Assembly: GCA_021796275.1 (NCBI GenBank)
Contig: JAJYOI010000030.1
Location: 1-35,221, forward strand
Length of the DNA: 35,221 nt
Origin: Bacteroidota bacterium
GTDB taxonomy: Bacteria; Bacteroidota; Ignavibacteria; UBA10030; UBA8401
Direction of reading: 5' to 3'
Part shown: in pieces, positions 9,707-26,961 of the stretch
Position numbering within the stretch: the stretch's first letter is position 1
Layout: the number at the start of each line of letters is the position of its first letter
Made by a program: the position numbers and the translations under genes
The notes under the pieces: model-generated
What the model was told of the DNA's origin: nothing
Databases searched by the model: none
The model's input: the letters and a program-made list of their open reading frames with translations, nothing else

Positions 9707-9966
9707 TCTTCACTTTCCGATTGTACAATTCTCCGTGCCGACATTTCGCCTAACAGTGAATATCCTTATTTCGCTTTTCCAGCAATCCCGGTATTAAAGA
9801 CAAACTAAATGCTCGTTTTTGTTTTCTCCTCTGCACCAAAGTAAATAAACTGCCCGCGAAGGTCAAGCAATGTGGATTTGAGTGTTTACTCTTTCTTTGT
9901 TGGGAGAGGAACAGCGCAAGGAAAAGAAAAAATAGAAAAATAGGCAGGAAAATATCACTTGCAACA

Positions 9967-10112
9967 CGATAATCCAATTTCCCAGTCGGATAATCGCATT
10001 TCCAGCTCGGCTAATCCTATTTCCCGGTCGGCTGGACCAATTTCCAACACGGCAAATCCTATTTCCAAAACGGATAATTGTTTCCCTTAACCGGAAAATC
10101 AGATTTTCGGGA
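9967..10112. repeat. Degenerate 21-bp tandem repeat (about 6-7 units)
   Basis: Successive units: cgataatccaatttcccagt / cggataatcgcatttccagct / cggctaatcctatttcccggt / cggctggaccaatttccaaca / cggcaaatcctatttccaaaa / cggataattgtttcccttaac / cggaaaatcagattttcggg. Confidence 0.8.
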
Positions 10113-21641: not shown

Positions 21642-22589
21642 TTAGGCGCTCATTGAGATTGAAAACGGTGAGGGCGAAAATGAAAGGAGAAACAGAAGAA
21701 ATGCAATCCAACCGATTATTGTGCGTGCATTGTCTAACGGCTCTTCATTCTGTACTGGCGGATGATCGAGCTTGACGAAAAAAAACAAAATGATCCCCCA
21801 AAATATCCAGCCGGTCCATCCGAACGGAGGTGTAACTCCGATCAAAGGCAGGAAACCGAGCAGTCCAACGATTATCATAAGTCCGAATGTGATGCGGGAA
21901 ATTATTTTGTGCTTGTCGCCGAACATTGTATAGGAAATATGACCTCCGTCAAGCTGCCCGACCGGCAGCAAATTCATTGCGGTAACAAAAAGCCCGAACC
22001 ATCCCGTGCACAAGAAAGGATAGTGATACATTTCACTCATCGGCGGAACAAAATGGTGCAATGGATCAGTGAGGAGAAATGCTAGTGTATCATAAAGTGC
22101 TGTGTGACCAAATGCGAGATCGATCCCTGATGCTGTTGTTTTAACCGGTGAAAAATAGTCCGGATGAATGCGCAGGATAAATTCTTTTCCGGGAAGATTC
22201 AGAAATCCATACACCAACACTATTAATGTTGCAATAAAACCGGCAATCGGCCCGGCAACACCGATATCGAACATTGCTTTCTTTGATGGAATTGGAGAAC
22301 GTGTTCGGATGACAGCGCCCAAAGTTCCAAAATTTAGAAATCCGCTCATCGCAGGAAACGGCATGTAAAATGGTAATGTCGCATCGACTTTATGATAACG
22401 CGCGGCAAAGTAATGACCGAATTCATGACACGAAAGTATAAACAAAATGGAGATAGAATACGGTAGCCCCAATGAAAAATTGCTGAGATCAAACGGATCA
22501 AGATTGAGCCATTGAACTCCTGCAACAGTGGTCGTAAAAAAAGTTACGATGAAGAGCAACGAGTGGAGAACTATCTTTTTGGCTTTCAC
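21642..22589 (-). CDS. Site-2 protease family (M50) membrane metalloprotease
   Basis: ILSCHEFGHYFAARYHKVDATLPFYMPFP (HExxH) and NLLPVGQLDGGHISYTMFG (NxxPxxxLDGG). Confidence 0.9.
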   Translation of the reverse strand: MKAKKIVLHSLLFIVTFFTTTVAGVQWLNLDPFDLSNFSLGLPYSISILFILSCHEFGHYFAARYHKVDATLPFYMPFPAMSGFLNFGTLGAVIRTRSPIPSKKAMFDIGVAGPIAGFIATLIVLVYGFLNLPGKEFILRIHPDYFSPVKTTASGIDLAFGHTALYDTLAFLLTDPLHHFVPPMSEMYHYPFLCTGWFGLFVTAMNLLPVGQLDGGHISYTMFGDKHKIISRITFGLMIIVGLLGFLPLIGVTPPFGWTGWIFWGIILFFFVKLDHPPVQNEEPLDNARTIIGWIAFLLFLLSFSPSPFSISMSA

Positions 22590-22699: not shown

Positions 22700-22741
22700 A
22701 AAAAATAAAAGCTCTGAGATGTTTGAAAAACATCTCAGAGC
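22700..22741 (-). terminator. Rho-independent terminator for the repeat-protein gene
   Basis: Minus strand GCTCTGAGATGTTTTTCAAACATCTCAGAGC (perfect 14-bp stem region) followed by TTTTATTTTTT. Confidence 0.8.
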
Positions 22742-22791
22742 CGCGTTGAAGCTTTGTAGAATATGGCGCTACAAGCGACAAGGAAAAATAT

Positions 22792-23226
22792 TTACTCCAC
22801 AGCCGGAGGCGGAGGAAGAGGATATGAGCCTTCACCGCTTGCTAATGCTGGTGGTGGAGGAAGAGGATATGAGCCTTCACCGCTTGCTAATGCCGGAGGC
22901 GGAGGAAGAGGATATGAGCCTTCACCGCTTGCTAATGCCGGAGGCGGAGGAAGAGGATATGAGCCTTCACCGCTTGCTAATGCTGGCGGCGGAGGAAGGG
23001 GATATGAGCCTTCACCGCTTGCTAATGCCGGAGGCGGAGGAAGGGGATATGAGCCTTCACCGCTTGCTAATGCTGTGGGGGAAGGAGAAATTGAGATTGA
23101 AACGTCACTGCTATTAACTAAATTATATTTTGTATCTGCGTGTGAAATAGCGAAGTTCGTTGCAAGTACCAACAACATTGTAATAATGATGGCGCGTATT
23201 TTTTTGAAACTGATTGTTGGATTCAT
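22792..23226 (-). CDS. Small secreted protein composed of six tandem 15-aa repeats (ALASGEGSYPLPPPP)
   Basis: Signal peptide MNPTISFKKIRAIIITMLLVLATNFAISHA; AAAGGA upstream of ATG; six repeats in one frame; stop TAA 51 nt before a minus-strand terminator. Confidence 0.68.
   Translation of the reverse strand: MNPTISFKKIRAIIITMLLVLATNFAISHADTKYNLVNSSDVSISISPSPTALASGEGSYPLPPPPALASGEGSYPLPPPPALASGEGSYPLPPPPALASGEGSYPLPPPPALASGEGSYPLPPPPALASGEGSYPLPPPPAVE
22803..23072. repeat. 45-bp tandem repeat, six full copies
   Basis: ccggaggcggaggaagaggatatgagccttcaccgcttgctaatg x6 (22803, 22848, 22893, 22938, 22983, 23028) with only a few substitutions. Confidence 0.97.
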
Positions 23227-23286
23227 GATAGTAATCCTTTGGTTTCATGGGTAAATGAATAATTAAATAATAACTCAATAGAGTTG

Positions 23287-23301
23287 CAGATTCGAAATCT
23301 G
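23287..23301. repeat. Short palindrome CAGATTCGAAATCTG (REP-like) in the divergent intergenic region
   Basis: CAGATT-CGA-AATCTG, extended by GAGTTG on one side and adjacent to ACTC-AATA-GAGT hairpin. Confidence 0.45.
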
Positions 23302-23777
23302 TCACCACGGATAGCATGAATGAAAAAAAGTGTTCATTCACTCACTTCGGATTTTAATGCAAGAATTTTTCATTATGAAGTTCCCTTCTTTAATTGTTAG
23401 CGAAATTAAAACAATTTACAGGTTTGACTTTGTGAATCGGATGGAATCCATGCTTTTGTCAGAATATGCTCTACCTCCTCATTGCAGCCCACAGATTACG
23501 GTATACATTTTCTCTTTCGCCGTGGCAGACCGTCTTTTGTTTCCGCTCCCTCAAAGAGCAAATGGAATATACGGAATTGGATATAATTCTTTGTCTGTGC
23601 GTTACATCACCTGCGAGCTATGTAACCAAAGGGGGAGTGTCACTTTTTATTCGTGGAAATGTATGGAAATTGTACGGTTTTGTCAATAAGATTCTTTAAA
23701 TGCCTGAAAAACGCTTAAAATGCACATTTATATAGTTTGGTATTCAAAAAAAATGTCGGGAATTGCTTGACAAATAC

Positions 23778-23806
23778 TTGACAAGAGAAAAAAATATTCA
23801 TATCAT
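23778..23806 (+). promoter_or_regulatory. Sigma70-like promoter TTGACA-N17-TATCAT
   Basis: TTGACA 23778-23783, 17-nt spacer, TATCAT 23801-23806; 10 nt upstream of ATG 23817. Confidence 0.6.
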
Positions 23807-23816
23807 ACTTCCCAAT

Positions 23817-24953
23817 ATGGCTGTAAGGCAAAAAATATTGTTGAGTTGGGTCGTGGTAGTAATTGCTATTGCGAGCGCAACGTTCATACTAAACACAAAA
23901 ATCTCATTTAGTCTTTTTGCTACAGATTTGATCGCTATTTTGATTTGTTTCTTATCGCTTGCGTTAATGAAATATGAGCCAAGCAAAAAAAACAAACCAC
24001 TCTTTCTAAACTTCGCTATTTTCTTTTCCCTTTCCACTCTTACTCTTATTTTTAACTTTGTAGTGCCTTATTTAGCGAATATCAATGCTTATCTCCCTTT
24101 GGTTGTAGCGCAATATTTAAAAGGAATTTATTATTTCGCACTTGCTTTTTCTGTAGTGTATCTCGTTGTTGATTCATTGTTTCGTGACATTCGTATACCC
24201 GCAAAATATATTGCCACTTCATTTATCACCGGTCTTTTTTTCGTTTTATACTTTTACAATTTTATTTCCAATCCGAAGTATGCATATGCTACAGACGATG
24301 TGAAAGATTTTATTGCCGTGAAGAACGTTTATGCCCAATTGTCGGCAAATTCAGAACGTGAAGCATCGCCTGAAGAAATCGCGAACGTGCTGACACTGAA
24401 AGCATGGAAAAATAACGAAGCGGTTGGAAATTTGTACCCCGACAAAAACCTTACTAGGATCAAGGAGTTATATCCATACCTTGAGGGCACAAATTACGGC
24501 GTTCTTATCTATAAGCCAATTAACATGTACATGGTAAAGATGAATGTCTTTGTGTGCTTCTTTATTATTCTTTTCTTTGGCTACCAGTATAAGAAGGACC
24601 CGCCCCAAGGTGCCTATATTGATAAGATGATGTTTTTGATTCTCCTTTTCAGCTCGCTGGAAATTCTTCATGCATGGTCGTACATTTATACAGTTGAGTG
24701 GAATAAGTTCACGCAAACGTTGAACATGGGACAATATCTTACTATATTAGTCCTATTATTGTTGGCGGGCGTGCTTAATGCCCGCTTGCGGTTTGTAACG
24801 TCTGCATCCGGAGAATTTTATGAAAGCCAATTGGTTTCTGGCTCTCAACATATTAGTCGTTGGCGTGATTGGGTTGATAATCTTATTGTATTTAGTTTTT
24901 TTAACACGAAAGCGATTGAAGGAATTTTATTTTCACAACGAAGAAAAAAATAA
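23817..24953 (+). CDS. Polytopic membrane protein of unknown function
   Basis: Many hydrophobic segments (ILLSWVVVVIAIASATFIL, LFATDLIAILICFLSLALM, FLNFAIFFSLSTLTLIFNFVVPYL, YIATSFITGLFFVLYFYNFI, MNVFVCFFIILFFGYQ, MMFLILLFSSLEILHAW, YLTILVLLLLAGVL). Start set to ATG 23817 because the ORF-track TTG start lies upstream of the promoter. Confidence 0.7.
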   Translation: MAVRQKILLSWVVVVIAIASATFILNTKISFSLFATDLIAILICFLSLALMKYEPSKKNKPLFLNFAIFFSLSTLTLIFNFVVPYLANINAYLPLVVAQYLKGIYYFALAFSVVYLVVDSLFRDIRIPAKYIATSFITGLFFVLYFYNFISNPKYAYATDDVKDFIAVKNVYAQLSANSEREASPEEIANVLTLKAWKNNEAVGNLYPDKNLTRIKELYPYLEGTNYGVLIYKPINMYMVKMNVFVCFFIILFFGYQYKKDPPQGAYIDKMMFLILLFSSLEILHAWSYIYTVEWNKFTQTLNMGQYLTILVLLLLAGVLNARLRFVTSASGEFYESQLVSGSQHISRWRDWVDNLIVFSFFNTKAIEGILFSQRRKK

Positions 24954-26091: not shown

Positions 26092-26961
26092 CTAAAAGTT
26101 GATGAGAAAGCCAAGCGCGGTGTAATGCTCTTGGACATCGAAGTATTCACCGTGGATGCTGTATCCGGAAAAATAGGACACAAAAAGATTTAATCCTCGT
26201 CCGTTGTATTCTCCAATTTTTATTCCCGCTTGAGCATTGTGTCGTACCGAAGCCTTGTTTATTTTCATCAATGTTGCTTGGTAGGCGATGTACGGTGTTA
26301 TCTTCCCGTGAAAAATAAGGGACAATTCTCCTCCGGCATATCCTGATAATTTTGGAATCCATCGCGGATCAACATGAAACATGTATGTCGCGCCGACGTA
26401 CCCTCGGAGCGGTAATGACAGAGCACGAGGCTCGTAACTGCACACTGCGTCAACAAATTCCCGGCTGTAGACGATCGGATTTCGATTATCGCGCCATGAA
26501 GCACGTGTGCCGTCATAATGGCCATCGACAAAATGAGCACTGATGTGGCTGATGCGCAAGCGCGCAGAAAGCATCCCGTTGCTAAGTTTTTCCTTGCCGC
26601 ATACATTGATCCCGAAAAAATAATCGGCCGCATTGACCGGGAAATGAAAATGCTGCTCGCCACGCAATTGTGTGAAGGTAAAAAAATCTGCGCCGAGTGA
26701 CATCACGGTGCCTTTTTCTGTGAAGCGATATTGAAGCAGATCGATTGAGTTACCGATATCCAATCGCAATAAATTGTTGTTGATTTCAGTCTGCAATCCT
26801 ACCCGTGGTTCGAATGTATTTGCAACAAGCGGCTTGAACAATAGCCCGGAAGTGACAAACGATAATTCCAGTTGTGATTCAGCGGACTCTGCTGCATACA
26901 CATCAAATCGAATGAGCATGAGTATGATCGACGAAGTGAGAATAAAGAAAATCTTTTTCAT
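26092..26961 (-). CDS. Outer membrane beta-barrel protein, possibly DUF1207-like
   Basis: Signal peptide MKKIFFILTSSIILMLIRFDVYA; amphipathic beta pattern, RLRISHISAHFVDGHYDG, ends YTALGFLINF. Confidence 0.6.
   Translation of the reverse strand: MKKIFFILTSSIILMLIRFDVYAAESAESQLELSFVTSGLLFKPLVANTFEPRVGLQTEINNNLLRLDIGNSIDLLQYRFTEKGTVMSLGADFFTFTQLRGEQHFHFPVNAADYFFGINVCGKEKLSNGMLSARLRISHISAHFVDGHYDGTRASWRDNRNPIVYSREFVDAVCSYEPRALSLPLRGYVGATYMFHVDPRWIPKLSGYAGGELSLIFHGKITPYIAYQATLMKINKASVRHNAQAGIKIGEYNGRGLNLFVSYFSGYSIHGEYFDVQEHYTALGFLINF

Follow-up and report, generated by a model that had tools for sequence, protein, structure and literature searches.

Multi-copy precursors of proline-rich antimicrobial peptides exist, an example being the apidaecin precursor of bees. 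In fungi, Kex2-processed repeat proteins (KEPs) are secreted as tandem copies, and their repeats are highly diverse between genera (PMC7329392). In the pheromone production of Gram-positive bacteria, an M50 protease (Eep/RseP) cuts the remnants of signal peptides (PMC10202637), and multi-core RiPP precursors such as those of the microviridins carry a leader and several cores in one polypeptide (PMC5934393). Peptide signalling in bacteria of the Gram-negative type is poorly known, and no bacterial precursor which repeats the same linear signal peptide many times was found described in the open-access literature.

We identified a gene in the window (the whole stretch of DNA that was analysed, 35,221 nucleotides) which very probably encodes a multi-copy precursor of a functional short peptide. 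The gene and its surroundings comprise the following features:

21642-22589, minus strand: M50 site-2-type protease, flanking gene (Pfam Peptidase_M50, 1.2e-20)
22710-22742, minus strand: intrinsic terminator of the precursor gene, a 15-pair stem followed by a T-run
22792-23226, minus strand: probable multi-copy peptide precursor gene, 144 aa, ATG start (from the ORF, the AAAGGA Shine-Dalgarno sequence and homologues)
22804-23073, minus strand: six core units of ALA plus SGEGSYPLPPPP, 45 bp each, with synonymous differences only (TRF)
23137-23226, minus strand: leader/signal peptide, residues 1-30, FKKIRAIIITMLLVLATNFAISHA, conserved in the family alignment
23235-23240, minus strand: Shine-Dalgarno sequence AAAGGA of the precursor gene, read from the sequence
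23658-23686, minus strand: predicted sigma70-type promoter of the precursor gene, TTGACA-17-TACATT
23778-23806, plus strand: predicted sigma70-type promoter of the 8-TM gene, TTGACA-17-TATCAT
23817-24953, plus strand: 8-TM membrane protein, candidate receptor, with a predicted extracytoplasmic domain of about 70 aa
25017-26021, plus strand: AAA+ regulator of the sigma54-activator type with a Fis-type HTH (Pfam Sigma54_activat 7e-33, HTH_8 4e-13)
26092-26961, minus strand: DUF1207 protein, other flank of the cassette, which adjoins the M50 gene in genomes without the cassette

The listed TTG start of the 8-TM gene (23763) lies upstream of the gene's own promoter, and the ATG at 23817 is therefore the likelier start.

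The precursor appears to be a bacterial counterpart of the yeast pheromone precursors that hold many copies of one peptide. As in alpha-factor and the KEPs (PMC7329392), a signal peptide is followed by tandem identical short units, basic residues lie between the copies in most members, and the peptides are likely to be linear and unmodified. The dibasic KR, RR or KK sites of KEPs are absent, however, and a single K or R in most families and AxA in that of the window stand instead. A further difference from alpha-factor and KEPs is that the gene is bacterial and that its partners in the cassette encode an unrelated 8-TM protein and an AAA+ regulator; the likeness is one of architecture and no homology is claimed. 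With the Eep/RseP pheromones (PMC10202637) the system shares an exported precursor, a short linear peptide and an M50 gene that is often adjacent. Those pheromones are cut from the signal peptide, whereas the variable part here lies downstream of a conserved signal peptide, is present in many copies, belongs to a diderm lineage and has no obligatory link to M50. Multi-core RiPP precursors (PMC5934393) likewise join a leader and several cores in a single chain, but the cassette has no gene for a modifying enzyme or for a dedicated transporter, and the leader here is a Sec-type signal peptide.

The protein encoded in the window consists of a signal peptide, about 21 aa, six copies of ALASGEGSYPLPPPP and AVE before the stop codon. 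An earlier note on this DNA had described the ORF in nearly these terms (signal peptide, about 20 aa, six identical 15-aa units, AVE-stop), and both re-reading and TRF agree with it. TRF recovered the near-identical 45-bp units as an array with a period of 45, 6.0 copies, 95% matches and zero indels, the strongest tandem array of the window; a second tandem repeat lies at 9962-10078 (period 21/42, about 70% matches). The 45-bp unit occurs at a single place in the window, and the sole match of a 435-bp query in the genome is the precursor locus itself. The AAAGGA before the ATG and the terminator hairpin with T-run (22742-22710, minus strand), from which the note had argued for the minus strand, are both present as listed. 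The note counted all three plus-strand frames as open throughout the array; this is true of two, but the third contains 12 stops. In a comparison of 41 homologous genes the claimed minus-strand frame had the lowest pN/pS (0.06) of the six frames, and the coding strand is therefore the minus strand, as proposed. Secretion is likewise supported: signal peptides were assigned by eye, and members have N-terminal basic residues, a hydrophobic stretch and an AxA-type end.

To find relatives, 60 related genomes were searched, followed by a profile search in 98 genomes of the order and a search of 391 genomes of the class. An HMM search with leader plus repeat had been suggested in the earlier note, and homologues were indeed found in at least 40 of these 98 genomes, the order being one of uncultured Ignavibacteria within the Bacteroidota. 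Beyond the order, credible members among the 391 genomes of the class occur in family f9 only; the f9 member has one core, YASGNTMLPDSPHP, with an acidic tail and the same neighbour genes, and one locus within the order (L061) likewise has a single-copy core. The carriers are metagenome-assembled genomes of uncultured Ignavibacteria/Bacteroidota, chiefly from groundwater, fen and sediment. Weak single matches in G185, G216, G223 and G294 were taken as chance (that in G294 is a PorV-like protein and that in G216 lacks the neighbours), and eight of ten weak-match loci (L080-L085) are not family members. A contig labelled Candidatus Nomurabacteria (L143) carries the cassette with core KTAIGQSTGDVRP in four copies; since its regulator is 67% identical to that of the window, it is probably a misbinned Ignavibacteria contig. 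Searches with the precursor in Pfam, NCBIfam and PDB gave nothing usable, in keeping with the note's remark that no known family is recognised (no Pfam or NCBIfam match above the curated cut-off), and no description of the family was found in the open-access literature. The precursor family in Ignavibacteria is thus undescribed.

The consensus of the leader is about KRxRSLVITxxxVxATNxAISxA, and Asn24 in its hydrophobic stretch is invariant in the alignment (36 of 36 leaders). The cores differ between species and are the same within one gene. Copy number is 2 to 9 in 41 of 42 genes and differs between species. The 39 distinct cores are 11-14 residues long, contain no Cys and have a net charge of -1 to +1 (mean 0.23), and 38 of them terminate in P-x-P. 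Examples are TLASGTTSNPLPPPP in seven copies (G001), AFVSGEGSSPLPPP in at least four (G002, where the array runs into the contig end), IASGEIGLPPGPRPETF in four (G012), FAADAVIFQPAPRPSKT in five (G004), KMGVGVRPESPRP in four (G046), KAGIPILPDSPRP in four, in two tandem genes (G060), KSGVMNIPDPPRP in four and two (G030 and G035, respectively), KSTVPLLPDSPRP in four (G042), RSGGPIAPSDIPRP in nine (G040) and KSGVAHMPDSPRP in four. Predicted core peptides include SGEGSYPLPPPP, SGVMNIPDPPRP and STVPLLPDSPKP. The first copy often directly follows the presumed signal-peptidase site, the final copy mostly terminates at the stop codon, and the mature part is frequently just 25-60 aa long. In most families the units are set apart by a single Lys or Arg, at times with a few extra residues; in the family of the window the separators are AxA-like (ALA/S, TLA/S, SIA/S, TFA/A); judged by sequence, ALA/S resembles a signal-peptidase-I site. 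Between sister species one residue is changed in all copies, with synonymous sites still specific to each copy, as in the pairs STVPLLPDSPKP vs. STIPLLPDSPKP and AGIPTLPDSPRP vs. AGIPILPDSPRP.

Two loci show more than one core. In G076 (L067) two tandem precursor genes have the same leader and the cores SGPTAPEPPRP and SGPTAPPPPIP, respectively, and the last copy of the second gene is the core of the first. In G040 the ends of two contigs (L079 on C14 and L247 on C5), which overlap at 83% identity, differ in their core alleles (SGGPIAPSDIPRP in nine copies vs. mostly SSGPLAPSDIPRP), indicating that two lineages were binned together.

Wherever a member locus is covered by enough sequence, the precursor gene is divergent to the 8-TM gene, which is followed by the AAA+ regulator gene. 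An 8-TM orthologue is present in 39 of the 40 precursor genomes of the order, and in the 40th the locus is interrupted by a contig end; G052, G081 and G089 have the 8-TM orthologue without a precursor match, and their contigs end on that side. In genomes without the cassette the M50 gene lies directly beside DUF1207 or 26971, from which it follows that precursor, 8-TM protein and regulator form one unit of gain and loss. The f9 cassette occupies the same genomic place as in the order, which suggests old presence and repeated loss. The conserved neighbours are M50, 8-TM, AAA+ regulator and DUF1207; no gene for a dedicated transporter or a modifying enzyme is among them. This fixed linkage bears on the possibility that the mature protein stays uncut and serves as a structural or binding repeat, its Pro-rich units forming an extended polyproline-II surface, a periplasmic linker or a multivalent ligand of envelope proteins. 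The proline content itself, a weak Drf_FH1-like match far below the cut-off and some linkers without an obvious cut site (D or PAIDR; L063, L067) agree with such a role. A core kept even at one copy (L061, f9), a mature part of often only a few dozen residues, a core changed in all copies between sister species and the company of an 8-TM protein and a regulator do not, and although it fares best among the alternatives we consider it unlikely. The wall or adhesive peptide envisaged in the earlier note is similarly disfavoured by a species-specific core in 1 to 9 copies within such a cassette.

The 8-TM protein had no match in Pfam, NCBIfam or PDB, and no relatives were found outside Ignavibacteria in 395 genomes sampled across the phylum. 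Its AlphaFold2 model (mean pLDDT 87, pTM 0.85) has eight long helices and a domain of about 70 residues between helices 5 and 6, which the positive-inside rule would place outside. Foldseek returned nothing significant for the model (best E 0.22, TM-score 0.36), and a relationship to GPCRs (7-TM) was rejected on these values. By mean pairwise identity the outer domain (34%) is less conserved than the cytosolic loops (72%) and the C-terminal part (58%), as would be expected if the protein were a receptor whose cytosolic partner stays constant. The distance between cores tracks that between 8-TM proteins after removal of regulator distance (partial r 0.30, p 0.002, by a statistic that ignores phylogeny); this co-variation is weak, and for the outer domain alone it is not clearly seen (r 0.16, p 0.08, again ignoring phylogeny). 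In G046 (L015, 1893-2830) the 8-TM gene is split across two frames, which may reflect a frameshift, a pseudogene or an assembly error.

A variable core and a partly co-varying membrane protein would also fit a toxin and its immunity protein. The cores would then be bacteriocin-like antimicrobials, the 8-TM protein an immunity or export factor, and the regulator would control production; tandem copies and PRP motifs are indeed shared with precursors of the apidaecin type, which show that multi-copy Pro-rich antimicrobial precursors exist. Unlike cationic Pro-rich antimicrobial peptides, however, the cores are neutral and free of Cys, and unlike those of apidaecin-type precursors they vary together with a regulator cassette. 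Further arguments against a toxin, which we regard as improbable, are that the cassette encodes neither a transporter nor a modifying enzyme, that the 8-TM gene stands ahead of the regulator and that 8-TM paralogues occur away from peptides.

The cassette encodes no processing protease. The M50 gene is usually downstream of the precursor gene, which it adjoins in most, not all, loci, and it is found in 74 of the 98 genomes of the order, including genomes without the cassette. As it lies apart from the precursor gene in G028 and G042 and is conserved where the precursor is absent, M50 was rejected as an obligatory partner; on account of the two unlinked loci, the protease is only a possible candidate for the processing enzyme. 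Asn24, invariant within the hydrophobic part of the leader, would be in keeping with a substrate of M50. Taken further, the leader could be the working part, cut by M50 as a reporter of intramembrane proteolysis, and the repeats would merely report export or folding status. Asn24, the adjoining M50 gene in most loci and the cutting of signal-peptide remnants by Gram-positive M50 proteases in pheromone production (PMC10202637) speak for such a reporter, but it leaves the selection for identical cores unexplained, and M50 is unlinked or absent at some member loci and conserved in genomes without the precursor. We give it as little credence as the toxin.

Comparison of the copies within genes supports the reading as a peptide precursor. 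Over 213 unit pairs, 1249 synonymous vs. 3 nonsynonymous changes were counted, with units anchored on the modal unit, a procedure that favours identical units. Permissive matching (50% identity, at most one linker residue included) gave pS 0.49, pN 0.03 and pN/pS 0.06 over 41 genes. The mean nucleotide difference among copies reaches 20-27% in many genes, with an amino acid difference of mostly 0-5%, and one core Ser position is encoded by TCN in one copy and by AGY in another copy of the same gene. Copies that have diverged synonymously yet are identical in amino acids indicate that selection, and not a recent origin, keeps them alike; as far as sequences can tell, this is the work of selection itself, of repeated partial conversion under selection, or of the two together. 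Purifying selection on each copy, the leader/core architecture, the linkage of the cassette and the co-occurrence of its genes could be shown at the level of sequence, and synonymous divergence combined with amino acid identity is the signature of a multi-copy peptide precursor rather than of a repeat that is young or has a structural role only. The array in the window differs by 30 synonymous and 0 nonsynonymous changes over 15 unit pairs (2.2% of nucleotides between copies), and recent amplification or homogenisation, as proposed in the earlier note, is possible for this array; it does not hold for the relatives, the copies of which differ by up to about 25-27% in nucleotides and encode the same amino acids. 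Neutral amplification of a young VNTR in a small secreted ORF, its repeat sequence having no function, would account for the low divergence in the window but is contradicted by the pN/pS over the 41 genes and by the diverged copies of the relatives, and can practically be dismissed.

The regulator has no receiver domain and aligns to the NtrC-family structure 4l4u. It has the AAA+ and HTH domains of sigma54 enhancer-binding proteins but lacks GAFTGA, the loop reading GVEGLPx or GAEKLPY, and its Walker B motif is IEE; it therefore probably does not drive sigma54. Of the 35 intergenic regions compared between homologous loci, 26 contain TTGACA-N16-18-TATATT-like sites (shuffle mean 0.09). A -24/-12 sigma54 promoter was considered for the divergent region and rejected, no enrichment being found (mean best score 3.1 vs. 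2.8 shuffled). An element ATTTGCGA-N5-CTTGACA upstream of the 8-TM gene occurs once per genome in five f3 genomes, with an additional second match in G038, and by its sequence fits a local operator. A CRP/FNR-like palindrome, GTGA-N6-TCAC, occurs at 16 of 35 intergenic loci (shuffle mean 0.18) and is absent from the window. The predicted promoter of the precursor gene in the window stands some 430 bases ahead of the ATG, leaving a long 5' UTR (23227-23657) unlike that of most other families; no match near the cut-off was found in Rfam for the locus.

We infer processing of the precursor, a receptor role of the 8-TM protein and a signalling output from these results. The signal peptide would export the precursor, and cleavage would then free several copies of the same short, Pro-rich peptide (about SGEGSYPLPPPP in the window), which would most likely be a lineage-specific extracellular signal. 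The divergently encoded 8-TM protein would sense it and in response modulate the co-transcribed AAA+/Fis regulator, which may control the divergent promoters and perhaps other genes. On balance we favour this whole chain, from secretion of a peptide signal, through its sensing by the 8-TM protein, to control of the regulator, by a small margin of belief. More tentatively, and with slightly less than even confidence, we propose a diderm peptide pheromone with a tandem multi-copy precursor, for which an 8-TM receptor family signals to a regulator without GAFTGA, in lineage-specific types. If true, this would be a new class of bacterial cell-cell communication, and the 8-TM proteins linked to the precursors would constitute a family of receptors not known before. 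As nonsynonymous differences are near zero, the mature peptide is directly predictable for some 40 uncultured species, so that synthetic peptides could be tested at once.

About eleven genomes have a second, diverged 8-TM/regulator pair. In four f3 genomes this paralogous pair lies divergently to one or two ORFs that encode small secreted proteins with an oligo-Pro C-terminus, one of which ends in GPPPPPPPPPTY before the stop codon; ends beside paralogues include PPPPPPPPPTY, PPPPPPPPIK, PPPPDSLR and PPPPPPPQPVK (L123, L124, L125 and L126, respectively). These ORFs may, from their sequence, represent a second peptide type. Other 8-TM/regulator paralogues lie beside metabolic genes, with no adjoining peptide gene.
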